Shown: in pieces, positions 1,898 to 54,604 of the stretch
Layout of the letters: every line of letters starts with the position of its first letter
Numbering within the stretch: the stretch's first letter is position 1
Assembly (NCBI RefSeq): GCF_024171995.1
Contig: NZ_JAMTCT010000003.1
Location: 248,001-312,000, forward strand
Direction of reading: 5' to 3'
Origin: Promicromonospora umidemergens
GTDB lineage: Bacteria; Actinomycetota; Actinomycetes; Actinomycetales; Cellulomonadaceae
Length of the DNA stretch: 64,000 nt
Notes under the pieces: model-generated
What the model was told of the DNA's origin: nothing
Seen by the model: only the letters and a program-made list of their open reading frames with translations
The model's database searches: none
Position numbers and translations under genes: made by a program

Positions 1898-1959
1898 GGG
1901 TGAGAAAACCAGTTCACCCCTCCCCGACCCGCCAGGGCAGGACACGCCGGCCGTAACCT
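1898..1959 (+). promoter_or_regulatory. cluster box pair and -10 of the MFS gene
   Basis: An inverted pair, GGGTGAG (1898-1904) and TTCACCC (1913-1919), separated by 8 nt. The TTCACCC half is 34 nt before TAACCT (1954-1959), a plausible -10 for the MFS gene at 2006. The same inverted arrangement with the same 8-nt spacer recurs at 10694-10715. Confidence 0.6.
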
Positions 1960-2005
1960 GAACAGGCCTGCCCCACTCAGCTGCGACACGATCGCTGGAG
2001 CCCCA

Positions 2006-3388
2006 TTGTCTGGTCTCGTCAGTGCCGAACCGGCAGAGGCTGGCTCTCCGACCGGCTCCTCCCGCGGCCGACCGGGCAAGCGGTCGGGCGACGCACGCCG
2101 ACGCGCCGGCCGGGTCCCGTCCACGGTGGTGACGCTGGGCGTGGTGAGCTTCCTGACCGACGTCTCCTCCGAGGCCGTCATGGCGGTCCTGCCGCTGTAC
2201 GTCACCGCAGCCCTCGGCATGTCGGTGATCGCCTACGGCGTGGTCGACGGGCTCGTTCAAGGCGCCGGGGCGCTCGTCCGGGTGGCCGGCGGCTGGGCCG
2301 CCGACCGCACCGACCGCCCCAAGTGGGTGGCGGCCGTTGGCTACGGCCTCTCGGCGCTGACCCGGGTGGGACTGCTGTTCGCCGCCGGCCTGCCCGCCAT
2401 CGCGAGCCTCGTCGTGACGGACCGCATCGGCAAGGGCATCCGCACCGCCCCGCGGGACGCCCTGATCGCCGCCGCGGCGAACCCCCGCAACCTCGGGCGC
2501 TCGTTCGGCGTGCACCGGGCGCTCGACACGGCGGGCGCCACGCTCGGGCCGCTGCTCGCGTTCGCGATCCTCTGGGCGATCCCGGACGGCTGGACGACGA
2601 TCTTCGTCGTCTCGCTCGGCGCGGCGGTGCTCGGCGTCGGCGCCCTCGTCCTGCTCGTCCCGGACCTGCGGCCGCGCCAGGCCGCGTGGCTCAGGACGCA
2701 CCGCACGCGCGAGGACCGCGGGCTGCCCAGGTGCAAGGGGTGCACGTGCGACGCGGCCGGCGGCCTCGAGCTCGCCGGGCGGCCCTTCTCCTGGAGCTTC
2801 CTGCGCGGCGGCGCGACCGTGCGTCTGCTGGTCGTCGCCGGGATCCTCGGGCTGCTCACCGTCGGCGACGGGTTCGTCTACCTCGCGCTGCAGGACCGCG
2901 ACGGGTTCGCCACCCACTGGTTCCCGCTGCTCTACGTCGGGACGAACGCCACGTACATGCTGCTCGCCGCACCGATCGGCCGCCTCGCCGACCGCGTCGG
3001 CCGGGCCCGGGTACTGGTCTGGGGGCACGCCCTGCTGGCCGGCGCCTACGTCTGCGCGGCCCTCCCGTTCCCGGGAGCGGCCACCACCATCGCGGCCCTG
3101 GTGCTGCTCGGCACCTTCTACGCCATGACCGACGGCGTGCTCGCCGCGCTCACCAGTGCGCTCGTCCCCACCGCCGTCCGAGCCACCGCGATCGGCACCG
3201 CGCAGACCGTCACCGCGGTCGTGCGCATGGTCGCGTCCGCCGGGTTCGGCGTGCTCTGGTACGCGTTCGGCAGCGTCGAAGCGCTGTGGATCGTGACGGC
3301 CGCCCTGGTCGTCGCGGTTCCGGTGTGCGCATACCTGGTCAGGGGCGGCCGGCTGGAGCGGGACCCCGACCCGGAGATGCCGGCATGA
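2006..3388 (+). CDS. MFS transporter
   Basis: A 460-residue major facilitator with about 12 membrane segments. The sequence DRIGKGIRTAPRDALI in the loop near residue 140 marks an MFS subgroup whose substrates are mostly unknown. The central loop, near residues 241-246, carries CKGCTC, which could bind metal. The TTG start is preferred because GGAG sits 5 nt upstream and no better start precedes the conserved region. The stop overlaps the next ATG (ATGA), so the two genes are probably co-translated. A cluster-type box lies upstream. Confidence 0.85.
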   Translation: MSGLVSAEPAEAGSPTGSSRGRPGKRSGDARRRAGRVPSTVVTLGVVSFLTDVSSEAVMAVLPLYVTAALGMSVIAYGVVDGLVQGAGALVRVAGGWAADRTDRPKWVAAVGYGLSALTRVGLLFAAGLPAIASLVVTDRIGKGIRTAPRDALIAAAANPRNLGRSFGVHRALDTAGATLGPLLAFAILWAIPDGWTTIFVVSLGAAVLGVGALVLLVPDLRPRQAAWLRTHRTREDRGLPRCKGCTCDAAGGLELAGRPFSWSFLRGGATVRLLVVAGILGLLTVGDGFVYLALQDRDGFATHWFPLLYVGTNATYMLLAAPIGRLADRVGRARVLVWGHALLAGAYVCAALPFPGAATTIAALVLLGTFYAMTDGVLAALTSALVPTAVRATAIGTAQTVTAVVRMVASAGFGVLWYAFGSVEALWIVTAALVVAVPVCAYLVRGGRLERDPDPEMPA

Positions 3389-4413
3389 CCGGCAGACCCG
3401 CCTTCCGCCGTCGGGCCGCGTTCGCCGTGCTGGTCGTCGTGGTGCTCACCGGCACCACCTGGTACGCCGCCGCGGAGCTCCAGCGCGCGCGGGCGGAACA
3501 GAACGCGCCGACCCGGGTCGAGGTGACCGAGGGCGTGCTGGACGGTCCCCACGTCCTGTTCCGCGGCACAGCCCCGGGCGAGCTCTACGGCAGGGTCGCC
3601 GCCGTCGCCCTGGACGATCTGTCCGGCCCGCGCGAGGTCACGCCCGTCGTGTGCGACCGGGTGTCGTCCCAGGGCGCGACGACGCTCTGCCTGCGCACCC
3701 GCCGCGGTGTCGTCACGACCTACGAGGCCGAGGTGCTCGACGCCGCCTGGCGGACCACGGCCACCTGGTCGCTGCCCGGTCTCCCCAGCAGGGCCCAGCT
3801 CTCACCGGACGGGCTCGTGGCCACCACCGCGTTCGTGACCGGCCACTCCTACTCCCAGGCGGGCTTCTCCACGGAGACCATGGTGCGCGACGCCGACGGC
3901 GCGAAGGTGTCCGGCAACCTCGAGGACTTCACCCTGCTGGCCGACGGCGAGCGCGTGGCCCCGGTCGACCGGAACGTGTGGGGTGTGACCTTCGTGGACG
4001 ACCGCTACTTCTACGCCACGGTCCGGTCGCAGTCCCTCGGCCACACCTGGCTCGTGCGCGGTGACCTCACCGAGCGCACCCTCGTCACCGTGCTCGACGG
4101 CGTCGAGTGCCCCTCGTTGTCCCCGGACGGGACCCGGCTGGCCTTCAAGCACGACGTCGCGGCGGACGGTGCGGCGACCCAGCACTGGACACCCGCCGTG
4201 CTCGACCTGGCCACCCTGGAGGTCACGGTGCTCGACGCCGAGCAGCGGACCGTGGACGACCAGATGACCTGGCTCGACGACACGACGCTCCTCTACGGGC
4301 TACCCCGTGCCGACGAGCCAGGGACCACCGACGTCTGGTCCCTGGCCGTCGACGGCACGAGCAAGCCCGCCGTGGCGATCCCGCAGGCCTGGTCCCCGAG
4401 CGTCGTGGGGTGA
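3385..4413 (+). CDS. membrane-anchored propeller-like protein of unknown function
   Basis: 342 residues. An N-terminal signal anchor (residues 10-30) is followed by an extracellular domain with repeated beta-propeller-like segments of the TolB/WD40-like kind, for example LSPDGLVATTAF and LSPDGTRLAFK. The ATG overlaps the MFS stop codon, so it is translationally coupled to the transporter and may act with it at the cell surface. I do not recognise a catalytic motif. The 3' end faces the lipoprotein gene, and a 14-bp tandem duplication lies between the two. Confidence 0.7.
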   Translation: MTGRPAFRRRAAFAVLVVVVLTGTTWYAAAELQRARAEQNAPTRVEVTEGVLDGPHVLFRGTAPGELYGRVAAVALDDLSGPREVTPVVCDRVSSQGATTLCLRTRRGVVTTYEAEVLDAAWRTTATWSLPGLPSRAQLSPDGLVATTAFVTGHSYSQAGFSTETMVRDADGAKVSGNLEDFTLLADGERVAPVDRNVWGVTFVDDRYFYATVRSQSLGHTWLVRGDLTERTLVTVLDGVECPSLSPDGTRLAFKHDVAADGAATQHWTPAVLDLATLEVTVLDAEQRTVDDQMTWLDDTTLLYGLPRADEPGTTDVWSLAVDGTSKPAVAIPQAWSPSVVG

Positions 4414-4422
4414 CACGACGCC

Positions 4423-5193: not shown

Positions 5194-5207
5194 GTCATGT
5201 GTCCCGG

Positions 5208-8200
5208 TCACTGGTCGGTGAACACCGGCTCCACCCAGTACCCGGTGCCCTGCCACGAGTACTGCGGGAAGCCGCCGCCATAGGAGTAGCGTCCGGCGTC
5301 CACCGGCGTCGTCAGCGGGCCGATGGTCCGCGGCTGTGCGAAGTACCCCGCACCGGCCGCGTAGCCGCCCTGCGGCGCGAGATAGGACACGACGTAGGTG
5401 GTGCCCGCCGTGATGGCCGCCGGATCGGGCAGCGGGACCGTCTGCCAGCCCTCGCCCCCGCCCGAGGGTGCCTCCGTGGTGGCCAGCGGCGCACCGCCCG
5501 CCGACCACACGGTCACCGTGTGCGGCCCTGGGTTGTTCGGACCCCGGTAGAAGCGGACCGCTCCGACGACGCCGTCGCGGGCCGCGGAGAACCGGGTGCC
5601 GAGCTCGACGGCCGCGCCGTCGTCCGCCGATGCCACCGGCGGCACGTCACCGCCGAAGATCAGGCACGGGCACGCGCCGGCCGGAGCCTGCGTGGTGAAC
5701 GACCACGTGGTGGGCGCAATGGTGCCCCCGTCGGTGGTGGTCCCCGCGAACCGGGCCGTGTACGTGGTGCCGGGCAGAAGGTCTGCCGTGGGGTCCAGTG
5801 TCGCCGTCGTGCCGTTGATCGCCAGGCTGCCCGGCACGGCCTGGCTGCCCGGTCGGGTCAGCGTCAGCGTGGCGCCCGCCGCGAGCGGCTTTGATGCCGT
5901 GACCGAGACGGAGGTGCTCGCCTGCACGTCGAACGCGCCGGAGGCCGGCGTCCGCGAGACGACGGTGGGGGCGACGGGAGCCGGCGTGAACGCCACGTCC
6001 ACGAGGTAGCTCGAGGAGGTCGTGGTCGTCGGGCGGCCCGAGCCGTAGAGGTACACCCCGGCGTTCTGCGGCGTGTTCAGGTCCCCGACCGTCCGGGGGG
6101 CAGCGAGCGCACCGAGGGTCGCCGGATAGCGGCCGGTCGGCGCACGGTAGCCCACCGTGTACTCCTGTCCGGCGGTCACCGCTGCGGGGGTGTCGAACTC
6201 GACGTCCTGCCACCCACGCGTGACGGGGTGCGTGACGGTCGCCTGGGCGACGAGCTGCCCGTTCTCGGCCCACAGGGAGGCCACGAACGGCCCCTGGATC
6301 TCGGCCGACTTCCAGAACTCCATCCCGGAGACGTGGCCTGCCACGCGCGGCGAGAAGCGCATGCCGAGCACTACGGCGCCCGGGTCGGCAGCGGCCGCGA
6401 GGTCCGGCACCGTCGTCTCGTCGAACACGCCGCACGGGCACGTCGCGGACGGCGGGCGGACGGTCCGGAAGCTCCAGGTCCCGCCGTCGGACAGCTGTGT
6501 TCCCTCGGCGGAGCGGGCGGTGACCACGGCCGTGTGCTGGGCGAACCCGGCGAGCGGCGCGGACGGCGTGAAGGTGGCCGTCCGCGTGGGGGCGTCGTAG
6601 GAGACGCTGCCCGCCACGGCGTTGCCCGCCTCGTCGGTCACGGTGAAGCCGATCGTCGACAGGACCGCGGGCTTCGAGAACGTGATGCGCACCCGGCCGT
6701 CCAGGGGCACGCTGACCTCACCTGCGACGGGTGCGTGCGCGATGGCGACCAGCGGGGAGTCGTCGATGAACGTGAACACGGGGTCCACGTAGTAGGCGGC
6801 GTTGTTCCAGGACTGGGTGGGGACGGTACCGGCAGCGCCGAACACGCCGGCCGGGGTGGCGCCGAACCCGCCCTGGACGGTGAGCGGCCCTGCGGCGCGC
6901 CCCTGAGCCTGGAACGCCCAGGGCGTGGCGGTGTAACCGCCGGAGGGCGCGGTGTAGGACACCACGTACGCCTCCCCCGCGACGACGGGCACCGGGCGGA
7001 CGAACGACGCCTTCTGCCATCCGGTCGCCGACTCGCCGGTGAACTGCACGGCGGCCAGCGGCTCGCCGGCCGCGCTCCACAGCGTCCCGCGGTGCACGCC
7101 GGTGTTCGCCGCGTTCTTGTGAAACCGGACGCCGCTGATGTAACCGTCGGCCGCCGCCACGAACCGCATGCCCAGCTCGACCGGCGACGAGTCGTCGGCC
7201 GGGGCGTTGGTCGGGGGCGCGGTGCCGAACACCGTGCACGGGCAGGTCACCTGGACGCCCACGGACGCGGCGGGCCCGATGTTCGCGGAGTCGTCGACCG
7301 CACGGGCACGGATCCCGGCCGCTCCCGAACCGAAGATCTGCCCGGTGTACGTCCAGCTCGCGCGGCCGGTGGCGGGGTGCCAGGTCTGCCCGTCGTCGAG
7401 CGACACCTCGACGCCTGCCACCCGGCCGGTGGCGTCGGAGGCCGTACCGGTGACGGTGACGCTCGACCCGCCTGCGAACGACTGCTGCGCGGCAGGGCCC
7501 TGGATCTGGGTGGTCGGCCCGGTGACGTCAGTCGTCCGCGTCGCCGGGGTGATGCCGGACGCGAGGCTGTCCGGCTGGACGCCCATGTCCGCGAACAGGT
7601 TGACCGTCGCCTGGCGCATCCGGGAGTCCGCGGGGGCGCCGTCGCCGTCGTGCTGCTGATCCAGGCCCCACGACCACTGCACCGTGCCGGCCGAGAACAC
7701 CAGCGCGCCGCTCGGGGCCCGGTACATCGTGATCGTGTGCGTGGTCACGCCGGGCGCCACCGCGTTGCCGAAGTCCTGCAGATACTCGGGTACGTCGCCC
7801 ACCGTCTTCGACATGCGGATCAGACCCGCGGGCCGGACGCCGTTGTCGAGGTCCTCGTTCGACTCGTACCCGACCGTGTGCTGCGCCAGCGCCTGAGAGG
7901 TCCCGGCGGCAAGGGAGGCCAGCGTCGTGCCCCGCCAGATCCTCATCTTCCCCTCCTCGGCCGGGACAGTGACGGGCAGGTCCGAGTAGTTGGTCGTGTA
8001 CAGGGTGCCGATGAGGCCGTTCTCGGGGCGGCCTGCCCCGGCGGCCTTGCTCGCATACCGGGGGTCGCGCCACGTCCCGGTCCACTCGGTGGAGGGGTCG
8101 ATCTTGGCGCTGCCCCAGGTCTCCTTGTACGACACGAGGGTGCGGCGGGCGGCCGCCGGGCCGGCCACGGACGGTTCCCAGCGCGTGCGCCAGTAGACCT

Positions 8201-9158
8201 CGTTGCCGGCGAAGAAGCCGAGGTGCACCCCTGCGTCGCGGGCCTGCTCGACGGCGGCCCGCTGCGGGCCGGACCAGTACTCGTCGTGCCCGACGGACAG
8301 GAACGCGTCGTGGTTCAGCAGCCGAGACCCGTCGCGGTCGGTGTCTGCCCCCGCGATGTAGGTGACGTCGTAGCCGTTCTGCTCCAGGAACCGGACCATC
8401 GCGTACTCGGCACTGAAGTAGAAGTCACGGCCCTGCGACAGCCCGCGGGTGTTGAACGGACGGTTGTAGCTCAGCTTGTAGGCCCGCCCGTTGGCGCCGC
8501 CCTGGTAGAAGCTGGAGCCGCCGTAGGTGTTGTAGGCCTGCCAGGTCGTGTCCGCCGTCTGGAAGACCATGTCCGAGGTGGAGCCGTCGTCGCGCACGAC
8601 GAACGTGATGTGGCTCTGACCGCCCGTGTCCTGCCGGGTCAGGTGCGCCACGTAGACGCCGGACACGGCGGTGGCCGGGACGTCCCATGCCGCCGACACC
8701 GCCCAGCTCCCGCAGTCGACCAGCTCGACGGGCTCGGACCAGGCGCACTCGGGCTGCGTCTGCGGCAGCGTGGCGCTCGGCGTGACCTGTGCGACCTTGC
8801 GCGCCCCCAGCCCCTGGTACCAGCCCGTGCGGTAGATGTCGATCGTGTACGCCCGCGCGTCGGTGTCGATCTTGAACGCGACCCGGCTCCCCGTGTCGAC
8901 GCTCATCTCGGTGGCGAAGCCCTGGATACTGGAGTCGCCCGCGCCCTCGATGTCCCAGACCTGCGGGGACGTGCCCGGCTTCGAGTTCTCGCACACGACC
9001 GGGTTGCCCCCTGGATCGCACGGGGCAGCCTCGGCGGTGGTCGCGGGGACCACGGAAAGCAGGCCAGAGGACAGAGCGAGCACTGCCACGGCGAAGACCG
9101 CCGGGACGCGAAGGGCGCGACGGGACCGAGATGCTGGACCTGCTATGGAGTAGCCCAC
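5208..9158 (-). CDS. giant secreted protein: N,N-dimethylformamidase beta-like domain plus three DUF4082 domains
   Basis: 1316 residues. A signal peptide ending in ATTAEA is followed by a region resembling the C-terminal domain of N,N-dimethylformamidase large subunit (about residues 60-530; it contains DAFLSVGHDEYWSG). Next comes an Ig-like domain (about 540-635), then three DUF4082 modules alternating with two Big_5 Ig-like modules. Each DUF4082 module opens with a CPCxxF signature near residues 640, 906 and 1161. The cysteine pairs may form disulfides. GTG 9158 is chosen because TACAGT lies 7 nt upstream (leaderless); a longer form from GTG 9167 is possible. Similar proteins occur beside actinobacterial polysaccharide genes, but their function is unknown. 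The box upstream fits the cluster regulon. Confidence 0.85.
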   Translation of the reverse strand: MGYSIAGPASRSRRALRVPAVFAVAVLALSSGLLSVVPATTAEAAPCDPGGNPVVCENSKPGTSPQVWDIEGAGDSSIQGFATEMSVDTGSRVAFKIDTDARAYTIDIYRTGWYQGLGARKVAQVTPSATLPQTQPECAWSEPVELVDCGSWAVSAAWDVPATAVSGVYVAHLTRQDTGGQSHITFVVRDDGSTSDMVFQTADTTWQAYNTYGGSSFYQGGANGRAYKLSYNRPFNTRGLSQGRDFYFSAEYAMVRFLEQNGYDVTYIAGADTDRDGSRLLNHDAFLSVGHDEYWSGPQRAAVEQARDAGVHLGFFAGNEVYWRTRWEPSVAGPAAARRTLVSYKETWGSAKIDPSTEWTGTWRDPRYASKAAGAGRPENGLIGTLYTTNYSDLPVTVPAEEGKMRIWRGTTLASLAAGTSQALAQHTVGYESNEDLDNGVRPAGLIRMSKTVGDVPEYLQDFGNAVAPGVTTHTITMYRAPSGALVFSAGTVQWSWGLDQQHDGDGAPADSRMRQATVNLFADMGVQPDSLASGITPATRTTDVTGPTTQIQGPAAQQSFAGGSSVTVTGTASDATGRVAGVEVSLDDGQTWHPATGRASWTYTGQIFGSGAAGIRARAVDDSANIGPAASVGVQVTCPCTVFGTAPPTNAPADDSSPVELGMRFVAAADGYISGVRFHKNAANTGVHRGTLWSAAGEPLAAVQFTGESATGWQKASFVRPVPVVAGEAYVVSYTAPSGGYTATPWAFQAQGRAAGPLTVQGGFGATPAGVFGAAGTVPTQSWNNAAYYVDPVFTFIDDSPLVAIAHAPVAGEVSVPLDGRVRITFSKPAVLSTIGFTVTDEAGNAVAGSVSYDAPTRTATFTPSAPLAGFAQHTAVVTARSAEGTQLSDGGTWSFRTVRPPSATCPCGVFDETTVPDLAAAADPGAVVLGMRFSPRVAGHVSGMEFWKSAEIQGPFVASLWAENGQLVAQATVTHPVTRGWQDVEFDTPAAVTAGQEYTVGYRAPTGRYPATLGALAAPRTVGDLNTPQNAGVYLYGSGRPTTTTSSSYLVDVAFTPAPVAPTVVSRTPASGAFDVQASTSVSVTASKPLAAGATLTLTRPGSQAVPGSLAINGTTATLDPTADLLPGTTYTARFAGTTTDGGTIAPTTWSFTTQAPAGACPCLIFGGDVPPVASADDGAAVELGTRFSAARDGVVGAVRFYRGPNNPGPHTVTVWSAGGAPLATTEAPSGGGEGWQTVPLPDPAAITAGTTYVVSYLAPQGGYAAGAGYFAQPRTIGPLTTPVDAGRYSYGGGFPQYSWQGTGYWVEPVFTDQ

Positions 9159-9165
9159 GTTCGCC

Positions 9166-9217
9166 ACTGTAAGGACGTCGACAGCGGTCAGGCAGAGCGA
9201 GGAAGGGTTCCTCACCC
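9166..9217 (-). promoter_or_regulatory. cluster box and -10 of the DUF4082 gene
   Basis: Read on the minus strand, GGGTGAG (9217-9211) lies 39 nt before TACAGT (9171-9166), which is itself 7 nt before the GTG start. A second box, TTCACCC at 9222-9228, is offset by exactly 11 nt, the spacing of a PHO-box-like direct repeat. Confidence 0.6.
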
Positions 9218-9218
9218 C

Positions 9219-9265
9219 CGGTTCACCCGTCTGCACGAGACTCCCGGTCCACCCGTCTGCACGAG
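9219..9265. repeat. two-copy direct repeat, 26-bp period
   Basis: A 21-bp unit at 9219-9239 recurs at 9245-9265 with one mismatch. Both copies contain CACCCGTCTGCACGAG. Each copy includes a TTCACCC-like box, so the array doubles a possible operator between the DUF4082 gene and lhgO. Confidence 0.75.
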
Positions 9266-9312
9266 GCGTGCCGGCTCTCTGCCAGGATGCTCGCACCGAC
9301 ACGGAGGTAGTC

Positions 9313-10512
9313 ATGGAAGACCTGGTCGTCATCGGTGCCGGCATCGTCGGACTCGCCACGGCGCGCGAAGTGCTCCGGCGCCGTCCGGGAGCAGCCGTCC
9401 TCGTCCTGGAGAAGGCCGACGACATCGCGAGCGCGCAGACCGGCCACAATTCCGGCGTCATCCATGCCGGGCTCTACTACGCGCCCGGCTCGCTCAAGGC
9501 CAGGCTGTGTCGGGCCGGGCAGCGGGCCACCAAGGAGTTCTGCGACGAGCACGCCATTCCGTACAAGACCATCGGCAAGCTCGTCGTGGCGACCGACGAG
9601 GTCGAGGTCGCCCGGATGGAGCGGCTGGCCGTGCGAGGCGCCGAGAACGGAATCGAGCTCGAGCGCATCGACGGCGGCCGGCTCGCGGAGATGGAACCCA
9701 ACGTCCGCGGGCAGGCTGCACTGCTGTCCCCAGCCACCGGTGTCGTCGACTTCCGCGAGGTCGCCCGGGCGATGGCCCGGGACATCGACGAGCTGGGCGG
9801 ACGGGTGATCACCCGGTCGCAGGCCCGCTCGATCCGTGAGCTCGCGGGCCCCTCGGGCGAAGTGGTCGTCGGCTCCGACACAGGCGAGTACCGCACACGG
9901 AAGCTCGTCGTGTGCGCCGGCCTTCAGGCCGACAGGGTCGCAGCCATGGGCGGGCTCACTGTGGATTTCCAGGTCATCCCGTTCCGCGGGGAGTACTACC
10001 AGCTACCGCACGACCGTTCCGACGTCGTGCAACGGCTCATCTACCCGGTCCCTGACCCCGGCCTGCCCTTCCTCGGCGTCCACCTGAGCCCGACGATCGA
10101 CGGCAGGATCACCGTCGGCCCCAACGCCGTGCTGGGCTTCTCACGCGAGCGTCATCCCCGCGGTTCTGTCACGGCCCGCGACGTGGCGGAGTACCTGACG
10201 TTCCCGGGCATGTGGCGGTTCGCGAAGTCGAACATCCGGACGGGGGTGGACGAGATGCGCAGCTCGCTCTTCCCGCAGGGCTACCTCGAGCTCGTCCGTA
10301 AGTACTGCCCTGGACTCCGCCTCGAGGACCTGCGCCCTTATCCCGCCGGCATCCGTGCGCAGGCCATCATGCGGGACGGCACCTCGGTCGAGGACTTCTT
10401 GCTCCGTTCGACGGAGCGTCAGCTGCACGTGTGCAACGCGCCGTCGCCGGCCGCCACGTCTGCGATCCCCATCGCCGGTCTCATCACTGACAAGTTCGCG
10501 ACCGCTGCCTGA
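9313..10512 (+). CDS. lhgO: L-2-hydroxyglutarate oxidase
   Basis: 399-residue FAD-dependent oxidoreductase of the DAO fold. It oxidises L-2-hydroxyglutarate to 2-oxoglutarate and passes electrons to the quinone pool or oxygen. The N-terminal FAD motif GAGIVGLATA starts at residue 8. The family signature HNSGVIHAGLYYAPGSLKA follows near residue 50, and GRITVGPNAVLGF near residue 260. The ATG at 9313 has GGAGG 6 nt upstream; an in-frame ATG at 9268 would add 15 unconserved residues. It is a metabolic gene with no obvious link to the glycans, although a TCCACCC box and a weak -10 (GATGCT, 31 nt away) precede it. Confidence 0.92.
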   Translation: MEDLVVIGAGIVGLATAREVLRRRPGAAVLVLEKADDIASAQTGHNSGVIHAGLYYAPGSLKARLCRAGQRATKEFCDEHAIPYKTIGKLVVATDEVEVARMERLAVRGAENGIELERIDGGRLAEMEPNVRGQAALLSPATGVVDFREVARAMARDIDELGGRVITRSQARSIRELAGPSGEVVVGSDTGEYRTRKLVVCAGLQADRVAAMGGLTVDFQVIPFRGEYYQLPHDRSDVVQRLIYPVPDPGLPFLGVHLSPTIDGRITVGPNAVLGFSRERHPRGSVTARDVAEYLTFPGMWRFAKSNIRTGVDEMRSSLFPQGYLELVRKYCPGLRLEDLRPYPAGIRAQAIMRDGTSVEDFLLRSTERQLHVCNAPSPAATSAIPIAGLITDKFATAA

Positions 10513-10693: not shown

Positions 10694-10753
10694 GGGTGAA
10701 TACCCCTGTTCACCCTCTCCACGGGTTTCTGCAATGTGTCCTGGACGTAAGAC
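10694..10753 (+). promoter_or_regulatory. palindromic cluster box and -10 of the first glycosyltransferase
   Basis: GGGTGAA (10694-10700) and TTCACCC (10709-10715) form a perfect inverted pair around 8 nt. TAAGAC (10748-10753) lies 32 nt further on, and the ATG at 10761 is 7 nt after it, which fits a leaderless transcript. Confidence 0.7.
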
Positions 10754-10760: not shown

Positions 10761-11984
10761 ATGCATTCCGCCGCTCCACACGTTCTGGTGATCATCCAGA
10801 ACCTGCCGTTCCGGCTCGATCGCAGAGTACGGTCCGAGTGCCGCGCCCTGACGGACGCCGGCTACCGGGTGAGCGTCATCTGCCCGCAGGAGAACCCGGG
10901 CGAACCCGCCCGGTTCAAGATCGACGAGACCACCGTGCACCCCTATGCGCCACCGCCGGACTCGCACGGGCTCGCTGGCTACGTGCGCGAGTTCGTCGTC
11001 TCCTGGTGGCGCACCGCTCGCGCATCGGTGCGCGTGCACCGGGACGCCCCGTTCCAGGTCATCCAGGCGTGCAACCCGCCGGACACCTACTGGCTGCTCG
11101 CGCTGCTCTGGCGCCTGCGGCGCGGGGTGCGGTTCGTCTACGACCAGCACGACCTCTGCCCAGAGGTGTACGTCGCGAAGTTCGGCCGCCGGGGCCCGCT
11201 GCACCGCGCCCTGCTGCTGCTGGAGCGCGCCACGTATCGCAGCGCGGACCATGTCATCTCGACCAACGGCTCCTACCAGGCGATCGCGCAGGGTCGTGGC
11301 CGGGTCGACCCGCTGCGCAGCTCCGTCGTGATGAGCACCCCCGACGCCGACCTGATGCGGCGCGGCGAGCTCGAGCCGGGAGCGCGCGACCAGGCAAAGC
11401 ACCTCGTGGCCTATGTCGGCATCATGGGTTCGCAGGACGGCGTCGACCGGCTGCTGGCCGCCGTCGACCACGTGGTGCACCAGCGCGGGCGCACCGACGT
11501 GCGGTTCGCGCTCCTCGGGTTCGGGGACGCCCTGGCGGACCTGCGCGCCGACTGCACACGGCGCGGCCTGGACCCCTGGGTGCACTTCACCGGACGGGTG
11601 GACCACGCAGCGATCGGGCGCTGGCTGTCGAGCGCCGACCTCGGGGTCACGCCCGACCCGCCCAGCGAGTTCAACGACCGCTCCACCATGAACAAGACCC
11701 TCGAGTACATGGCGCACGAGCTGCCGGTCGTGGCGTCGGACCTGACCGAGACCCGCAACAGCGCGGGCGCGGCGGCGGCCTACGTCGCCGGCACCGACCC
11801 TGCGGCCCTCGGCGACACGATCCTCGAGATCCTCGACGACCCGGGGCGCGCCCGTGCCATGGGCGCGGTCGGCCGCGCTCGGATCGAGGGCGAGCTGTCC
11901 TGGCGCCGGCAGGCCGCCACCTACGTGGGGGTCTTCGACGGCATCACCGGGCGCACCGGAACACCTGCCGAGGCCCACGCGTAA
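10761..11984 (+). CDS. glycosyltransferase, GT4 family (GT-B fold)
   Basis: 407 residues. The N-terminal signature VLVIIQNLPFRLDRRVRSEC is typical of GT4 enzymes in exopolysaccharide loci. The C-terminal nucleotide-sugar domain has KTLEYMAHELPVVASD, the family E-x7-E region, near residues 313-328. Donor and acceptor are unknown. The ATG 10761 is chosen because a -10 (TAAGAC) sits 7 nt upstream; an in-frame ATG at 10734 would add nine unconserved residues. It is the first gene of the cluster and has its own palindromic promoter box. Confidence 0.87.
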   Translation: MHSAAPHVLVIIQNLPFRLDRRVRSECRALTDAGYRVSVICPQENPGEPARFKIDETTVHPYAPPPDSHGLAGYVREFVVSWWRTARASVRVHRDAPFQVIQACNPPDTYWLLALLWRLRRGVRFVYDQHDLCPEVYVAKFGRRGPLHRALLLLERATYRSADHVISTNGSYQAIAQGRGRVDPLRSSVVMSTPDADLMRRGELEPGARDQAKHLVAYVGIMGSQDGVDRLLAAVDHVVHQRGRTDVRFALLGFGDALADLRADCTRRGLDPWVHFTGRVDHAAIGRWLSSADLGVTPDPPSEFNDRSTMNKTLEYMAHELPVVASDLTETRNSAGAAAAYVAGTDPAALGDTILEILDDPGRARAMGAVGRARIEGELSWRRQAATYVGVFDGITGRTGTPAEAHA

Positions 11985-12018: not shown

Positions 12019-12117
12019 TTCACCCCGGGTGAAAGGGGCCCACGGGTGAATAAACAGCGTCCGCAGGGTGATTTCGAATCACACCGGCCGGTACATCACG
12101 GGGCCGGCACGTACATT
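12019..12117 (+). promoter_or_regulatory. compound cluster boxes and -10 of the amino-sugar operon
   Basis: TTCACCC and GGGTGAA abut as a palindrome (12019-12033). GGGTGAA recurs at 12044-12050 and GGGTGAT at 12066-12072, 22 nt (two 11-nt units) further on. TACATT (12112-12117) lies 39 nt after the last box and resembles the TACGTT -10 before the second priming transferase (54599). A second, unboxed candidate promoter, TTGACT (12134-12139) with TGATAA 18 nt later, is closer to the gene. Confidence 0.6.
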
Positions 12118-21767: not shown

Positions 21768-21813
21768 ACGATACCTTTGTCGAGCGTGGCGTGATACGCC
21801 CGGAAAGGGTGAA
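21768..21813 (-). promoter_or_regulatory. cluster box and -10 of the leftward Wzz-like gene
   Basis: On the minus strand TTCACCC (21813-21807) lies 33 nt before TATCGT (21773-21768). The box also sits 3 nt before the ATG of the rightward gene at 21817, so an activator bound there might hinder that gene. Confidence 0.65.
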
Positions 21814-21816
21814 CAA

Positions 21817-23914: not shown

Positions 23915-23971
23915 TTCACCCGGACATTCACCCTCCGCCGTATTCCGCGCCGGCACTTCTTCGTTCACGAT
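23915..23971 (+). promoter_or_regulatory. tandem cluster boxes and -10 of the deacetylase operon
   Basis: TTCACCC at 23915-23921 and again at 23927-23933 (12-nt period). CACGAT (23966-23971) is 32 nt after the second box and 6 nt before the ATG at 23978. Confidence 0.65.
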
Positions 23972-27564: not shown

Positions 27565-27623
27565 GATAGTGGGGGCCGCCGCACGACAAAGGCACCCCTC
27601 TCACGGGTGAACGTAGGGGTGAT
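27565..27623 (-). promoter_or_regulatory. tandem cluster boxes and -10 of the beta-helix transcript
   Basis: Plus-strand GGGTGAA (27605-27611) and GGGTGAT (27617-27623) repeat with a 12-nt period, which is TTCACCC orientation for the leftward gene. CACTAT (27570-27565) is 34 nt from the nearer box. Confidence 0.55.
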
Positions 27624-27683: not shown

Positions 27684-27729
27684 TTCACCCCGCACGCGGC
27701 CTGCCGGCGCAATTTCCCGGGGCCATAAT
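27684..27729 (+). promoter_or_regulatory. cluster box and -10 of the GNAT gene
   Basis: TTCACCC (27684-27690) is 33 nt before CATAAT (27724-27729), which is 6 nt before the GTG at 27736. Confidence 0.65.
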
Positions 27730-28605: not shown

Positions 28606-28844
28606 AGACGGCGGGAAACATCTCACCCGGCCAGTGAGGCCGGTATCTGCCGGCCCTCAGGAATTCACCTCCTTGAATTCACCTTGTCGATTTCACCTTG
28701 TCGATTTCACCGTACGATTCGGCCCCACCAGGACCGCGCCGCCGGAACCACCGTCGGGCGATTATTTGATTCACCCGTTCTTCGTGCCCATTCACCCCCT
28801 TACGGCCTGCCGGAGACGATGGCTACCGCCGTACCGTGAACTTC
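28606..28844. promoter_or_regulatory. repeat-rich regulatory region before the AMP-ligase operon
   Basis: Contains CTCACCC (28622-28628), then four TTCACC units in a strict 14-nt tandem array (starts 28664, 28678, 28692, 28706), then TTCACCC at 28770-28776 and 28791-28797. The last box is 34 nt before TACCGT (28832-28837), which is 7 nt before GTG 28845. The array is AT-rich against its surroundings. Confidence 0.7.
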
Positions 28845-31702: not shown

Positions 31703-31723
31703 CCCCCTGACAGGAGAGACACG

Positions 31724-32020: not shown

Positions 32021-32035
32021 ACCACCGAGGCCACC

Positions 32036-32665
32036 ATGACCAGCCACGGGGACCCGGTGCGCGTCGAGGCGTCGGCGGACGTCGACGAGCGCGCGACGAT
32101 CGGCGGGGGAACCGCCGTCTGGCACCTCGCCCAGGTTCGGGAGGACGCCGTCGTCGGTGCCGGCTGCATCGTGGGACGGGGAGCCTACGTCGGGCCTGGT
32201 GTGCTGCTGGGCGACGGCTGCAAGCTGCAGAACTACGCCCTCGTCTACGAGCCGGCCGTGCTGGAGGACGGCGTGTTCGTCGGCCCCGCCGCCGTGCTGA
32301 CCAACGACCTGTACCCCCGGGCGATCACCCCGGACGGCACGGTCAAGACCGGCGACGACTGGCAGGCGGTAGGCGTAACGGTCAGGACCGGTGCCGCCAT
32401 CGGCGCGCGGGCGGTGTGCGTGGCACCGGTGACGATCGGCCGGTGGGCCACCGTCGCTGCCGGCGCGGTGGTGACTGCCGACGTGCCCGACTTCGCCCTC
32501 GTCGCCGGGGTGCCGGCACGGCGCATCCGGTGGGTGGGGCGTGCCGGCGTGCCGCTGGAACGCATCGATCCGGACCGGTGGCGCTGCCCCGCGACCGGTG
32601 ACGAGTTCACGGAAGCGGACGGCGTGCTGAGCGAGGCATCCTCGAGCGCTCGCCCTTGCGGGTGA
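32036..32665 (+). CDS. WbpD/WlbB-like N-acyltransferase (left-handed beta-helix)
   Basis: 209 residues. It begins with hexapeptide turns (AVWHLAQVREDAVVGAGCIVGRGAYVGPGVLLGDGCKLQN) and has VFVGPAAVLTNDLYPRA and VPARRIRWVGRAG. These are hallmarks of the UDP-2-acetamido-3-amino-2,3-dideoxyglucuronate N-acetyltransferase group. It would acylate the 3-amine introduced by the aminotransferase at 18669. Placed after the ACP, it might instead accept an acyl group from that carrier. Fifteen nt separate it from the ACP gene. Confidence 0.85.
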   Translation: MTSHGDPVRVEASADVDERATIGGGTAVWHLAQVREDAVVGAGCIVGRGAYVGPGVLLGDGCKLQNYALVYEPAVLEDGVFVGPAAVLTNDLYPRAITPDGTVKTGDDWQAVGVTVRTGAAIGARAVCVAPVTIGRWATVAAGAVVTADVPDFALVAGVPARRIRWVGRAGVPLERIDPDRWRCPATGDEFTEADGVLSEASSSARPCG

Positions 32666-33016
32666 CCCGCATTTCGCTCATCCTTTTCCTGGCGATCGAA
32701 TGGCGTGGATGAAAAGGGCGAATGGCGTGGATGAAATGGGTCCGCCCCCTTCTACGACGAATTTTCTCGCCCTTTTTCATCATGGGTGAATACGTGGGTG
32801 AAGACATGGGTGAAGAGGTGACGACAAGACGACACCGCCCCTTTCCTCTCGTATCATTGTGCTCAGGAAGCCGATGCGTTCCGGGCCATGAACCGCCCCG
32901 AACCGACCTGCACCAGGACTGGCACAGCCAGCCCCATCGCCCTGTGGCGGCCGTTGCACTCCGATCGAACGCACTCGATACATCGCAACCGTTGCCGAGG
33001 GAAGAAGGGTTTCGAC
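32666..33016. promoter_or_regulatory. regulatory region of the first priming transferase
   Basis: A 351-bp gap without a supported gene. GGATGAA occurs at 32707-32713 and 32729-32735 inside a duplicated AATGGCGTGGATGAAA unit (22-bp period, two 11-nt turns). Three perfect GGGTGAA boxes follow with a strict 12-nt period (32784, 32796, 32808). TATCAT (32852-32857), a strong -10, lies 37 nt after the last box. The remaining 160 bp would be a long 5' leader. Confidence 0.75.
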
Positions 33017-34627: not shown

Positions 34628-34689
34628 GGGTGACGTTCGGGTGAAAATGCGTCCATCGGTTACTACTCTGCGCAGGCCCACGGCATGCT
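34628..34689 (+). promoter_or_regulatory. tandem cluster boxes and -10 of the tyrosine phosphatase
   Basis: GGGTGAC (34628-34634) and GGGTGAA (34639-34645) repeat with an 11-nt period. CATGCT (34684-34689) is 38 nt downstream and 9 nt before the ATG. TACTAC at 34661-34666 is an alternative -10 that would break the spacing rule. Confidence 0.5.
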
Positions 34690-43506: not shown

Positions 43507-43586
43507 GAGAACCTCACTGGGGAGCAAATGGGCCGCCGGACCGCTGAGCCGCCGGACGATATGGGTCTGGAGAACGACCGCGCAAC

Positions 43587-43643
43587 ACGCTAACGGCGGA
43601 CAGGAAGGTCGGCACGGCGAGAGCGGGGTGAACTCTGGGTGAT
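43587..43643 (-). promoter_or_regulatory. tandem cluster boxes and -10 of the LamG/PKD operon
   Basis: Plus-strand GGGTGAA (43626-43632) and GGGTGAT (43637-43643) repeat with an 11-nt period. Read on the gene strand the nearer box is TTCACCC, 33 nt before TAGCGT (43592-43587). Confidence 0.7.
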
Positions 43644-50947: not shown

Positions 50948-51881
50948 GCACGCGCGGCCCGGTCATCGACCGCAGCTCCGCCGCCAGCCGGGCCGTGAGG
51001 GGTGCGTCGTGGTCGTCGCCGGCTCGCCCGGTGACCCGCTCCAGCCAGAACTCCGCGGCCTCGACGTGACCGGGGCCGGGTGCCGTACGGGGTCGTCGGC
51101 CGAGGACGGCGGCGCTCGTCACCGCGTGGTAGACCAGGTCGGCACCCGGCGGCGCCCAGGCCGCGTCCTCCCAGTCGATGAGCCAGGGCAGGCCGGGACC
51201 GCAGCGCCGGAGGTTCCACGGTGTGAGGTCGCCGTGCATCGGCCGCCAGTGGGCGGGTGTCCCCGGCGGCCGGTGGAGCGCCGGCTCGAGATGCCGCTGC
51301 ACCTCGGCGACGAGCCGGGGCAGGGCGACCCGGCGTGCAGGTCCGGCCGGTCGGGGCGGCATCGCTTCCATGACCATCCAGTGCCAGCCTGCCGTCTCGC
51401 CACGCTCCACCACCCGCGGCAGCCGGAAGGTCTCCGGCCGGCCGTGCACGATGGCCGCGACGGCCTTGTGCTCGCGGTCGAGCTCCGCCGGGTCCTCGCG
51501 GAGCTTGAGGAAGCCCACCGGCTTCCCCTCGCGCAGCAGGACGGCGGCCAGGCCGGTGCGAGAGGCCTGCGGGCGCTCGTAGAGGGCGAGGTCGTCGAAC
51601 GGACCGAGGCGCGCCGCCAGGGCCCGCCAGCGCGCAGGCCCGCCCGGCGGCGCCCAGCTCACCCGGTCGCCCGGGACGACGCGTGGCCCGAGCAGGGCGA
51701 CTGCGGAGTACCACCCCCACTGCACCGCCAGCGCAGCGGGCTTCGACCGCGTGAACAGGGCCATGCCGGCGAGGGCGCCCCGGCGCGACCCGGCGGGGAC
51801 CAGAACGTTGCGGGTGCCCATCCGGGGACGGATCAGCGCGTACGGGCCCGCTGGTCCCGGCGGGCCGTCAGGACCGCCCAC
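50940..51881 (-). CDS. aminoglycoside-phosphotransferase-fold protein
   Basis: 313 residues. The catalytic loop MHGDLTPWNLR lies near residue 216 and the metal motif LIDWEDAAWAPPG near residue 234, as in APH/choline-kinase enzymes. A conserved lysine may be in GFLKLREDPAEL near residue 125. In glycan loci such kinases can phosphorylate sugars or attached groups; that is inference. The GTG overlaps the end of the upstream glycosyltransferase by 14 nt. Its own stop overlaps the convergent sulfotransferase end by 8 nt. Confidence 0.78.
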   Translation of the reverse strand: MGGPDGPPGPAGPYALIRPRMGTRNVLVPAGSRRGALAGMALFTRSKPAALAVQWGWYSAVALLGPRVVPGDRVSWAPPGGPARWRALAARLGPFDDLALYERPQASRTGLAAVLLREGKPVGFLKLREDPAELDREHKAVAAIVHGRPETFRLPRVVERGETAGWHWMVMEAMPPRPAGPARRVALPRLVAEVQRHLEPALHRPPGTPAHWRPMHGDLTPWNLRRCGPGLPWLIDWEDAAWAPPGADLVYHAVTSAAVLGRRPRTAPGPGHVEAAEFWLERVTGRAGDDHDAPLTARLAAELRSMTGPRVLS

Positions 51882-53097
51882 GCGCGCTCAGCTCGGGCTC
51901 CGAGAGGTCGGCGTCGGTCGCCCACCGCGCGGCGTGCCTGCGCCGCGCGAGCGGTTTGGGTCCGGGCACGCTGCCCGCGGCCAGGTCGAACGCGAGCTTC
52001 TCGTAGCCGTCGGTGACGTCGTCCCAGTCGTACAGGGCCGCCCGCTCGGCCAGGGCCTGGCCCCGGCCCGCGCAGCCCGCTGGGTCGCTCTCGGCCTCGG
52101 TGACGCGCGCGCCGACGTCGTCCACCGTGCGGAAGTACCGGCCGGCACCCCCGAGGACCTCACGGTTGAACGCGACGTCGTACGCGATCGTGGCGGTACC
52201 GCCCCCGATCGCGCGGAGCAGCGACGGGTTGGTCCCGCCGACCGAGTGCCCGTGCAGGTACGTGAAGGCGCCCACGTAGAGCTGGTCGAGGAGCCCCTGG
52301 TCCCACACACCGCCCAGGAGGCGCACCCTGCTGTCACCCGCCGCGAGCGCCGAGATCCGCTCGGTGTACTCGTGCGCGTAGGGCGCGGAGCCGACGACGA
52401 CGAGCGGGCGCTCCGCGTCGGTCGCCACGTAGCCTTCGACGATCACGTCGACGTGGTTCTCCGGCTCGAACCGGGCGACCACGAGGTGGTAGCCGCCGGG
52501 TGTCAGGCCCAGCTCCGCGAGGCGCTCGTGCCCGACGCCGGTCAGGTCGGGTGCTCCGTACGTGATGAGGCGGCTGTCGGCGGCGTACTCGTCGCGGTAG
52601 TAGTCGGCGATGCCCGGCGCGTCCGCGATGAGGGCGTCCGAGAGCCCCACGGCCGCCGTCTCGGCAGCCCGGTAGTACTTCCGGCCGGTCGGCCCCCACT
52701 TGGCGCGGCGCCATTCGAGACCGTCGACGTGCGTGGCGACCGGGATGCGCACCGCGCGCAGCACGGGCAGCAACGGCGCATTGGCCGCGTTGAACACGAA
52801 CGCCACGTCGGTGCGGCGCGCCGCCAGGTGCGCGACGGACAGGGCGGTGTGGCTCAGGGTCTCCAGGGTGCGGCGACGCAGGGCGGGCAGCGTGACGAGC
52901 TCCATGCCCAGGTGGTGCGTGAGCGACGGTGCGCCGCTGTCCCGCGTGGCGAGGCCTTCCCGGCAGTAGACCCGTACCCGGTGCCCGCGCGCCGCGAGCC
53001 TGGATCCGATCTCCTCCACCGCCGTCTCGAAGCCTCCGTAGCGTGCTGGGACACCCCGTGTGCCGACCATCGCGATGTGCAGAGTTTCCGGGGGCAT
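51868..53097 (-). CDS. glycosyltransferase with DUF1972 N-terminus, GT4 family
   Basis: 409 residues. The N-terminal IAMVGTRGVPARYGGFETAVEEIG is the DUF1972 signature found in rhamnosyltransferase-like GT4 enzymes. The donor domain has VVARFEPENHVDVIVEGY and HGHSVGGTNPSLLRAIG. The ATG is 6 nt after TACGCT, so it is probably leaderless. It heads a two-gene operon with the kinase-like gene. Confidence 0.9.
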   Translation of the reverse strand: MPPETLHIAMVGTRGVPARYGGFETAVEEIGSRLAARGHRVRVYCREGLATRDSGAPSLTHHLGMELVTLPALRRRTLETLSHTALSVAHLAARRTDVAFVFNAANAPLLPVLRAVRIPVATHVDGLEWRRAKWGPTGRKYYRAAETAAVGLSDALIADAPGIADYYRDEYAADSRLITYGAPDLTGVGHERLAELGLTPGGYHLVVARFEPENHVDVIVEGYVATDAERPLVVVGSAPYAHEYTERISALAAGDSRVRLLGGVWDQGLLDQLYVGAFTYLHGHSVGGTNPSLLRAIGGGTATIAYDVAFNREVLGGAGRYFRTVDDVGARVTEAESDPAGCAGRGQALAERAALYDWDDVTDGYEKLAFDLAAGSVPGPKPLARRRHAARWATDADLSEPELSARGRS

Positions 53098-53103
53098 TCC
53101 GGG

Positions 53104-53154
53104 AGCGTAATCGCCCCAGATGCGCGGAACACCCCCGGGACACCCATTTCACCC
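53104..53154 (-). promoter_or_regulatory. cluster boxes and -10 of the DUF1972 glycosyltransferase
   Basis: CACCC cores occur at 53130, 53141 and 53150 on the plus strand. The best box, TTCACCC (53148-53154), reads GGGTGAA on the gene strand and is 38 nt before TACGCT (53109-53104), which is 6 nt before the ATG. Confidence 0.6.
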
Positions 53155-53205
53155 CTCTGAGGCACCATTTGTGCGCTGGGGCAAATCCGTTGGGTATAAC
53201 CTTTT

Positions 53206-54417
53206 TTAACCCGGGTGCCTCTTGACCGGTGCCAGCCGGACCACAGCCCGCCGGACCACCAGGAGCCGCCCCATCTGCGCCCGGTACCGCTGCACCCCGA
53301 ACCGCTCCGCCGCGTCCCGTCGGCCGGCCTCCGCGAGCGCGGAGGCTCGCGCCCGGTCGTCGACGAGCGCCGCGACGGCACCGGCGAGGGCTACGGCATC
53401 GTCGGGCGGCACGAGCAGGCCTGTCTCTCCGTCGCGGACGATCTCCGCCAGCCCCTGTGTGCGGCTCGCGACCACGGGCCGCCCGGCGAGCATCGCCTGG
53501 ACCGCCACGTTCCCGAACGGCTCCACCCGCGACGGCACGACGACGACGTCGGCGCGCGCGAACCACGCCCACGGGTCCGCGTACCCCACGAGCTCGACCG
53601 CACCGGCCAGGTCGTCCTCGTCGGCCCTGGCCCGGAGCTGGTCCTCGAACCACTCGTAGCCGGCGAACACGGACCCGCACAGCGTCAGCCGCACGTCCCG
53701 GCCGGCCCGGCGCAGGCGCGCCACGGCCTCGAGCGCGACATCGGACCCCTTGCGCGGCGACAGGCGCCCGACCAGCACGACGTGCGTCGATCCGGACCCC
53801 GGGCCCGCACCACCGTCGGCCACCGGAGACGGTGCCGCGCCGCCCGCACCGGCGTCGGGCCCTGGGGCCGCCGGCGGCCCCGGTACCCCGTTGTAGAAGA
53901 CCCGGGTCCGCTGTCTGAGCGCCGGGACCGCCGACACGACGACGTCGCGCGCCGCCACCGAGTTCACCACGACGTCGCGCGCGAGCAGCAGCGGAGCCGC
54001 CAGGCCGACCCGGACCACCCAGCGCACGTCCGCCTCCGCCTCGTGCACGTGGCACACGGGCGCCACCCCGGCGAGGCGGGCCGCGACCAGCCACGCGGGG
54101 ATCGTGAGGGTGTTGACCAGGACGGTGTCGGGTCCCAGGCGCCGGATCAGCCGAGTCATCGGTGCGAGGGCGCGCAGCGTGCTGATCCCCAGTGCGGCGA
54201 TGCCGCGCGGCGTCAGGTGCGCCTTGCGCAGTACCGGCACGTCGAGCGTCTCCACGCGTGCGCCGACGCCGCGCATCCGCTCGGCGAGCGGCCCGTCGCT
54301 CGGCAGCAGCACGACGACGTCCGCGCCCGCGTCGAGGCAGCCGACCGCGGTCTCGACCAGCTGGAGGTCGGAGCCGTAGAGGTCCACGGAGGCGTGCGCG
54401 AGCAGAACCGTTGTCAT
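53206..54417 (-). CDS. glycosyltransferase, GT4 family
   Basis: 403 residues. VLLAHASVDLYGSDLQLVETA at the N-terminus, LVGRLSPRKGSDVALEAV near residue 220 and VVPSRVEPFGNVAVQAMLAGRPVV near residue 305 (E-x7-E) define GT4. A Gly/Ala/Pro-rich insert near residues 190-210 separates the two Rossmann domains. CACAGT lies 8 nt before the ATG, so it is probably leaderless. Specificity is unknown. Confidence 0.88.
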   Translation of the reverse strand: MTTVLLAHASVDLYGSDLQLVETAVGCLDAGADVVVLLPSDGPLAERMRGVGARVETLDVPVLRKAHLTPRGIAALGISTLRALAPMTRLIRRLGPDTVLVNTLTIPAWLVAARLAGVAPVCHVHEAEADVRWVVRVGLAAPLLLARDVVVNSVAARDVVVSAVPALRQRTRVFYNGVPGPPAAPGPDAGAGGAAPSPVADGGAGPGSGSTHVVLVGRLSPRKGSDVALEAVARLRRAGRDVRLTLCGSVFAGYEWFEDQLRARADEDDLAGAVELVGYADPWAWFARADVVVVPSRVEPFGNVAVQAMLAGRPVVASRTQGLAEIVRDGETGLLVPPDDAVALAGAVAALVDDRARASALAEAGRRDAAERFGVQRYRAQMGRLLVVRRAVVRLAPVKRHPG

Positions 54418-54425
54418 GGGCGCCA

Positions 54426-54470
54426 ACTGTGCCAGCCGGGCGCCGGACAGGAGATGTCGGACCGGGTGAA
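54426..54470 (-). promoter_or_regulatory. cluster box and -10 of the GT4 gene at 54417
   Basis: Plus-strand GGGTGAA (54464-54470) reads TTCACCC for the leftward gene and is 32 nt from CACAGT (54431-54426). Another GGGTGAA is at 54492-54498. Confidence 0.55.
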
Positions 54471-54553
54471 CTCCGGCCGACCACACCGCCCGGGTGAAAT
54501 TTCCTTTCTCCGTCGAAAATGCCCCCTCACCAGGACGAAACCCGCGGGTTACC

Positions 54554-54604
54554 GGGTGACTTCGACGAGTTCACACCGCGCTGTCCGCAACTTCACCGTA
54601 CGTT
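54554..54604 (+). promoter_or_regulatory. cluster boxes and -10 of the second priming transferase
   Basis: GGGTGAC (54554-54560) is 38 nt before TACGTT (54599-54604). TTCACAC (54570-54576) and TTCACCG (54592-54598) are 22 nt apart on the same side. TACGTTGATC here closely matches TACATTGATC at 12112, the candidate -10 of the amino-sugar operon. Confidence 0.55.

Follow-up and report, generated by a model that had tools for sequence, protein, structure and literature searches.

An orientation-dependent distance between a TTCACCC box and the -10 element at polysaccharide promoters of Promicromonospora

To our knowledge, few regulators follow a rule that ties the way their activator site points to how far it lies from the promoter. 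The marbox of Escherichia coli is an asymmetric, degenerate site of about 20 bp that is bound in both orientations by the AraC-type monomers MarA, SoxS and Rob, with a switch of promoter class that involves overlap with the -35 element; in 1999, Martin and co-workers are said to have tied its orientation to its distance from the core promoter. The boxes of the E. coli LuxR/STAND activator MalT are short asymmetric sites (GGGGATGAGG-like) in direct-repeat arrays, set at a fixed distance from the core promoter and nearer the transcription start. Here, we describe a short box, TTCACCC (GGGTGAA when read in the other direction), in a 64,000-nucleotide stretch of Promicromonospora umidemergens (contig NZ_JAMTCT010000003.1, positions 248,001 to 312,000; hereafter the window, whose coordinates we use). 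In this box the gap to the -10 element depends on the direction in which the box reads.

Like a marbox, the box appears to be an asymmetric site that works in either orientation, with a promoter distance particular to each. In contrast to the marbox, it is a 7-mer, always well upstream and often in tandem. With MalT boxes it has in common a short asymmetric unit, direct-repeat arrays and a fixed distance, but MalT boxes differ in sequence and lie closer to the start, and we did not connect any MalT-like gene with the TTCACCC box. The sites of BldM and BldM-WhiI in Streptomyces, also an actinobacterial system, hold the half-site GGGTGA (in the accessible part of PMC4125116), yet they are 16-bp elements with a fixed centre, whereas here single or tandem units occur at other spacings. 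The PHO box of PhoP/RegX3 has a TTCACC core and direct repeats about one turn apart, but its core is GTTCACC in 11-nt units, and the genome carries such boxes at pstS. SARP/AfsR boxes are likewise direct repeats one or two turns apart, with a 3' repeat 8 bp from the -10 (according to the accessible text of PMC10936776); here, by contrast, the gaps are 33-34 and 37-39. On the features tested, identity with PHO, SARP or BldM sites was rejected.

We propose that TTCACCC is, quite probably, the recognition unit of one activator that would drive extracellular-polysaccharide genes in the Promicromonosporaceae from either direction, with a contact point some 40 bp upstream of the -10. The box, its enrichment and conservation, the gap rule, the repeats and members elsewhere in the genome are direct observations. 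Stated by about 20 merged promoter groups (7 + 13), the rule is clear enough for a test in which one box is moved and flipped, and the box offers an entry point to the control of exopolysaccharide in these actinobacteria. Searches of the open PMC literature, which leaves out most subscription papers, for the box or for exopolysaccharide promoters of Promicromonospora turned up nothing on it.

Enrichment, placement and conservation of the box

Exact copies of the box number 30 in the 64 kb, against a mean of 4.61 (sd 2.12, largest 10) in 100 shuffles, and 22 of the 30 are wholly intergenic (8 genic) in a region where rough gene calls leave 4,436 of 55,000 bases between genes (P 3e-18). All 30 lie at 1-55 kb and none at 55-64 kb. 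The initial annotation, made from the letters of the window, had placed the 7-mer upstream of many transcription units and had seen it vanish after 55 kb, and both observations stand. Elsewhere in the same genome, 46 copies occur in 400 kb (20 stretches). Measured against 18 of these 20 control stretches (the two flanking the window were excluded), no 7-mer is more enriched than TTCACCC (6.27 expected, log10 P -11).

The enrichment extends to 12 clusters (704 kb), where it is 3.2-fold relative to 340 kb of own-genome control (17 of the 20 stretches, excluding the flanks and L126, which holds regulon members). The 15 single-base variants tested, of 21, ranged from 0.4- to 1.9-fold, except TTAACCC at 3.5-fold (counts of 11 against 1); TTCAACC, with 34 against 8, is another small-number case. 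Boxes preceded by A or T were enriched 6.2- and 5.2-fold, respectively, and boxes are retained in orthologous promoters of relatives.

These comparisons bear on whether PhoP/RegX3 controls the clusters through PHO boxes under phosphate starvation, which we consider very unlikely. The Streptomyces coelicolor core, GTTCACC in 11-nt repeats, contains TTCACC (as given in the accessible part of PMC4415409), a putative RegX3-like regulator adjoins pstS genes in the genome, and 11-bp repeats do occur at three window promoters (9158, 34699 and 43506). However, the genome's own pstS region near this regulator carries GTTCACC-N4-GTTCACC (L275:1260-1310), with weaker versions at two other pstS regions, whereas GTTCACC pairs with members at most 25 bp apart are absent from the 704 kb of clusters, and the enrichment of GTTCACCT there is 1.1-fold. 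Moreover, exact 12-bp repeats outnumber 11-bp ones by 49 to 9, the base preceding TTCACCC varies in paired boxes, and the boxes appear to work in both directions.

Box direction and distance to the -10 element

Independently of the hexamers originally picked, gaps were surveyed by pairing every exact box with every TANNNT at gaps 5-89. In the regions of 11 relatives, 205 TTCACCC boxes had a TANNNT 12 times at 33 and 12 times at 34, among 73 matches over all gaps, with lesser peaks at 55 (8 matches; this is 34 plus 21, that is, a second box) and 40 (6 matches). The 205 GGGTGAA boxes gave 3, 7 and 1 matches at 37, 38 and 39, and larger peaks at 48 (7), 49 (10) and 60 (8). In the 400-kb control (46 boxes per direction), TTCACCC had none at 31-35 and GGGTGAA had one at 39, the spacing of the cyclase promoter in control stretch L126.

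The pattern recurs once homologous boxes are merged and a gap is counted on condition that 40% or more of a group share it. Among 139 GGGTGAA groups, gap 38 occurs in 9 groups and gap 39 in 4 (mean per position, 0.80); among 152 TTCACCC groups, 33 was found in 3 and 34 in 4 (mean 0.51 per position). No merged exact-box group placed TTCACCC at 35-39 or GGGTGAA at 29-34. The hexamer TCACCC/GGGTGA behaved similarly, with 33 in 5 groups and 34 in 6 (mean 1.2), and 38 in 12 (mean 1.7).

Outside the genus, 14 of 52 priming-transferase loci were used (Promicromonospora itself and L034-L060 were excluded), from Myceligenerans, Xylanimonas, Antribacter, Xylanimicrobium, Isoptericola and one further family member. 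Their 57 GGGTGAA boxes had a TANNNT five times at 38, seven times at 39 and never at 27-36; gaps of 38-39 occur in 12 of the 14 loci, all preceding the priming transferase. Five more distant loci (L034-L038) have no TCACCC/GGGTGA in about 420 bp before that gene. Promoters read individually gave TTCACCC gaps of 31-35 and GGGTGAA gaps of 37-39. The orientation-dependent gap, originally proposed from the window, thus holds on sequence outside that view (same-genus clusters, other genera and merged groups), and at this level we regard an orientation-dependent box-to--10 distance, conserved in relatives with some spread, as confirmed.

A natural swap is also apparent. The GT4 gene 51868-53097 has GGGTGAA-N38-TACGCT upstream in the window and in relative G006; the same promoter in G002 and G009 reads TTCACCC-N34-TACGCT, plus GGGTGAA at 49, and in Myceligenerans indicum a gene with 73% identity to this one is preceded by TTCACCC-N33-TACTCT. 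One promoter has thus changed box orientation between species, with the gap moving from 38 to 33-34. This bears on the idea that the box is a repressor operator, or that the spacing merely reflects the copying of promoters, boxes included, from a single ancestor. Box and -10 could indeed be copied jointly, but spacers differ among promoters, the rule is valid in both orientations, orientation changed before this orthologous gene, and the boxes lie well upstream of the core promoter, which operators usually overlap. We give this explanation little credence.

Boxes frequently come in pairs. Same-direction pairs are commonest at 12 (15 groups), then at 21-24 (10 groups together); GGGTGAA followed by TTCACCC favours 14-15 (5 groups), and TTCACCC followed by GGGTGAA falls at 8-10 (6 groups, 8 pairs). 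Three control motifs gave one pair in total and the own-genome control stretches three, two of which (21 and 22) match spacings of the L126 boxes. Across 13 whole genomes, exact pairs exceeded a reversed-pattern control at 12 bp (49 vs 1), 21 bp (33 vs 1) and 11 bp (9 vs 0), as did the inverted pair GGGTGAA-N8-TTCACCC (13 sites vs 0). Seven of these 13 N8 sites, from three promoters, have a TANNNT at 33-34, six of them tied to two genes. In a cyclase operon seen in three genomes, the proximal box is fixed at gap 39 and the second box lies 22, 12 or 21 bp away.

From these regularities we infer protein binding, activation, a contact point, cooperativity and a single regulator. One activator would bind TTCACCC in either direction, its proximal unit placing the contact point about 40 bp upstream of the -10, with a gap of 33-34 when TTCACCC reads towards the gene and 37-39 when GGGTGAA does. 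The box centre lies about 42 bp from the -10 for GGGTGAA and 37.5 for TTCACCC. A contact point displaced about 2.3 bp from the box centre in the direction of the TT/AA end would bring both orientations to about 40 bp, near -52 from the start, and would be the reason why the gap changes by about 4.7 bp. This argument is one of geometry. The initial annotation took the shift for half a helical turn that keeps an asymmetric activator facing RNA polymerase; its interpretation finds partial support. The orientation-dependent distance stands, and the box would be a protein site for an activator, but flipping about the centre does not itself move a protein to the other face, and an offset of about 2.3 bp suffices. 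Opposed pairs (15 and 9 bp) average the 12 of direct repeats, which leans weakly towards the offset, the 9-bp class coming mostly from one promoter. Since this mean equals the direct-repeat 12 and the offset equalises distances, the bound protein probably keeps its place when the site is flipped, and a half turn would not be required.

Inspection by eye showed no -35 element in the promoters read, and the activator would accordingly be what recruits RNA polymerase. Many promoters have a second unit another one or two turns upstream (at 12 or 21-24 bp if both units point the same way, at 14-15 bp if GGGTGAA is followed by TTCACCC), which probably serves cooperative binding; we attribute the GGGTGAA gaps of 48-52 and 60-62 to distal boxes of this kind. 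In its boldest form, the proposal is a family-wide polysaccharide regulon with an invertible 7-mer, a protein that keeps one place on the DNA, a site that can flip within a promoter if the gap moves by about five bases, and extra units at whole turns. We hold it tentatively, rather below even chances.

Several observations count against the activator and its spacing rule. TANNNT is our own choice of -10 pattern, and six of the 15 hexamers originally listed are unlike it. In the window, only 6 exact boxes have a TANNNT at 33, 34, 37 or 38, so the window alone is weak evidence for the spacing. Kinship also makes the genomes dependent on one another; once homologous boxes are merged, the key gaps retain 7 TTCACCC and 13 GGGTGAA groups. 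Merged GGGTGAA peaks again at 61 (7 groups), with 3 groups each at 48, 49, 52, 60 and 68, and merged TTCACCC at 42 (3 groups); distal boxes do not cover the peaks at 42 and 68. Exceptions include single hexamer groups at swapped gaps and lone unmerged GGGTGAA matches (gap 34 in G008 and in G011, gap 35 in G007). Six relatives also have TTCACCC at gap 40, on the antisense strand close to where the priming transferase gene begins. In the other genera, 57 TTCACCC boxes gave one match at 33, none at 31, 32, 34 or 35, and others scattered elsewhere; outside the genus, this half of the rule rests on one match, which slightly lowers our confidence in the proposal. Among the pairs, 42 of 58 paired-box loci have no TANNNT at the expected gap, 9 of 28 twelve-bp pair loci were flagged as genic, and most of the 8 close TTCACCC..GGGTGAA pairs come from one promoter (12178). 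The sequence logo has no mirrored second half-site, so the off-centre contact point is drawn purely from spacing. Finally, Pfam recognised no regulator in the chosen subset of window open reading frames (ORFs) that was scanned.

Candidate regulators

The character of the site suggests, as a weak guess, a LuxR-type or winged-helix protein. A LuxR/NarL-type regulator with BldM-related specificity would name the family of the proposed activator, and in that sense overlaps with it; we see this as possible but unlikely. BldM sites read TCACcCgnncGgGTGA and those of BldM with WhiI TGnnCCGnnCGGGTGA, with an identical half-site GGGTGA (PMC4125116, in the part available), and the genome has 48 GerE-domain matches. 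On the other hand, TTCACCC..GGGTGAA pairs occur at 8-10 and at least 18 in the sequences searched and never at 11, the N4 distance of the palindrome TCACCC-N4-GGGTGA. A BldM probe sequence not taken from a database reached at best 48% identity among the matches listed in 13 genomes, with many paralogues. Counted anywhere in about 3.2 kb, irrespective of the position of gene promoters, a box is present in 5 of 30 GerE loci (of the 48); likewise wherever it lay relative to the promoter, it is present in 1 of 20 further LuxR-type loci.

Winged-helix loci held a box in 6 of 21 cases, five of which were read; two of the 21 domains (L173 and L187) were read on the wrong strand by the profile search. 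One locus (L188; G000:C27:19308-20465) encodes a winged-helix protein in which no receiver domain is recognisable; its gene is divergent from that of a 1388-aa subtilase. This orphan (G000:C27:19515-20465) could be the regulator and control itself, which strikes us as most improbable. A 21-bp TTCACCC repeat lies upstream in 9 of 9 regions read, own genome included, but the repeat is shared with the divergent subtilase gene, and in neither direction does a TANNNT stand at the expected gap. Moreover, the protein was not found in two of 13 genomes (G005 and G006), which keep the boxes. Altogether, the GerE, winged-helix and BldM-probe searches gave no convincing regulator, other families not having been searched.

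Window promoters, polysaccharide genes and members elsewhere

Judged from gene content, the window is an exopolysaccharide region of Promicromonospora. The ten best named matches of its priming sugar transferase all belong to this genus, and 13 of 13 Promicromonospora genomes hold the gene. Pfam scans outline two parts. Cluster A (about 9-34.6 kb) encodes a flippase, an O-antigen-ligase-type polymerase, sugar-nucleotide enzymes, glycosyltransferases and an AMP-ligase/pyridoxal phosphate (PLP) decarboxylase/acyl carrier protein/hexapeptide set; its proteins from 21677 (leftwards) and 21817 (rightwards) have no Pfam match and look Wzz-like by eye. Cluster B (34.7-56 kb) encodes a phosphatase, Wzz and many glycosyltransferases, with polymerase-like (38975) and flippase-like (47691) proteins recognised by eye. 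In 11 same-genus genomes (40-60 kb read each), eight have A genes with little B, G009 has B, G002 part of B and G006 both. The two therefore look like separate units with a box in common.

The putative promoters are as follows (gaps run to the presumed -10 hexamer given).

1913..1919 (+): MFS gene 2006-3388; TTCACCC, gap 34 to TAACCT, with GGGTGAG 8 bp upstream; kept in G003 and G006
9211..9228 (-): DMFA2_C/DUF4082 gene (ORF 5208-9461, start near 9153); GGGTGAA and GGGTGAG, direct repeat of 11; GGGTGAG at gap 39 to TACAGT
10694..10715 (+): GT4 gene 10761-11984; GGGTGAA-N8-TTCACCC, gap 32, TAAGAC
12019..12072 (+): MocA-type gene 12178-13239; TTCACCC, two GGGTGAA and GGGTGAT in that order, GGGTGAT being at gap 39 to TACATT
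21807..21813 (-): gene starting at 21677 (Wzz-like by eye); TTCACCC, gap 33 to TATCGT; conserved in 10 of 10 rows, window included
23915..23933 (+): deacetylase gene 23978-24631; TTCACCC-N5-TTCACCC, 12-bp repeat, gap 32, CACGAT; ATCACCC variants in several relatives
27605..27623 (-): upstream of a leftward gene (beta-helix-like secreted protein by eye, no Pfam match); ATCACCC and TTCACCC, 12-bp repeat, gap 34, ACTATC
27684..27690 (+): gene 27736-28605 (acetyltransferase-like by eye, no Pfam match); TTCACCC, gap 33 to CATAAT, which is CATACT in most aligned relatives
28770..28797 (+): AMP-ligase/decarboxylase/acyl carrier protein operon 28836-32665; TTCACCC-N14-TTCACCC, 21-bp repeat, gap 34 to TACCGT
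32784..32814 (+): priming sugar transferase 32888-34600; three GGGTGAA, 12-bp repeats, gap 37 to TATCAT; box and gap also in other genera
34628..34645 (+): low-molecular-weight phosphatase/Wzz genes; GGGTGAC-N4-GGGTGAA, 11-bp repeat, gap 38 to CATGCT
43626..43643 (-): PKD/laminin-G gene (ORF 40228-43527); ATCACCC-N4-TTCACCC, 11-bp repeat, gap 33 to TAGCGT
53148..53154 (-): GT4 gene 51868-53097; GGGTGAA, gap 38 to TACGCT; orientation swapped in relatives
54464..54498 (-): upstream of a GT4 gene (ORF 53206-54486; start first placed at 54417); two TTCACCC, the proximal one at gap 32, CACAGT
54554..54560 (+): second priming sugar transferase (start first placed at 54732); GGGTGAC, gap 38 to TACGTT

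All 15 genes originally listed have a box with at most one mismatch at the gap first given. The 7-mer is exact in 12 of the 15, the others being GGGTGAG (9211), GGGTGAT (12066) and GGGTGAC (54554), and the -10 hexamer fits TANNNT in nine; TAAGAC, CACGAT, ACTATC, CATAAT, CACAGT and CATGCT are unlike it.

Boxes, some of them at the right gap, also precede genes elsewhere in the genome. The initial annotation's view of a dedicated regulon is borne out as one box with many promoters of a polysaccharide regulon, and is not supported as to confinement to the window. Contig C5 has boxes in the interval that separates a nucleotidyltransferase gene from a glycosyltransferase/UDP-glucose dehydrogenase pair, the latter preceded by TTCACCC-N32-TAGCAT. 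A small membrane protein and a class III adenylate/guanylate cyclase (L126:15848-17401, G000:C5) lie downstream of GGGTGAA boxes, at gap 39 in three genomes. Counterparts of the MFS transporter gene 2006 (83-85% identical) in G004, G007, G011 and G012 stand on a contig other than that of the cluster and have GGGTGAA-N8-TTCACCC at gap 33-34. Paired-box regions on C7, C15 and C32 were rejected as members, as they look like coding or unclear matches; for those on C12, C27:45 kb and C1, box positions only were recorded.

Some gene sets in the window deserve a brief mention. At 28836-32665, genes for an AMP-ligase, a PLP decarboxylase (Orn/DAP/Arg type), an acyl carrier protein and a hexapeptide transferase are consecutive, perhaps machinery attaching a decarboxylated amino acid to the polysaccharide. 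Behind the 21-bp pair of this operon, at 28664-28712, stand four TTCACC copies (followed by T, T, T and G) with an exact 14-bp period. The products of 5208-9153 (DMFA2_C and DUF4082 repeats) and 40228-43527 (PKD and laminin-G) are very large, likely secreted proteins whose boxes resemble those of the polysaccharide genes. Elsewhere in the genome, a BrxB gene (BREX defence) has TTCACCC boxes nearby; clear coding calls are few in this region (L163; G000:C15:6-26 kb), which is perhaps a mobile island.

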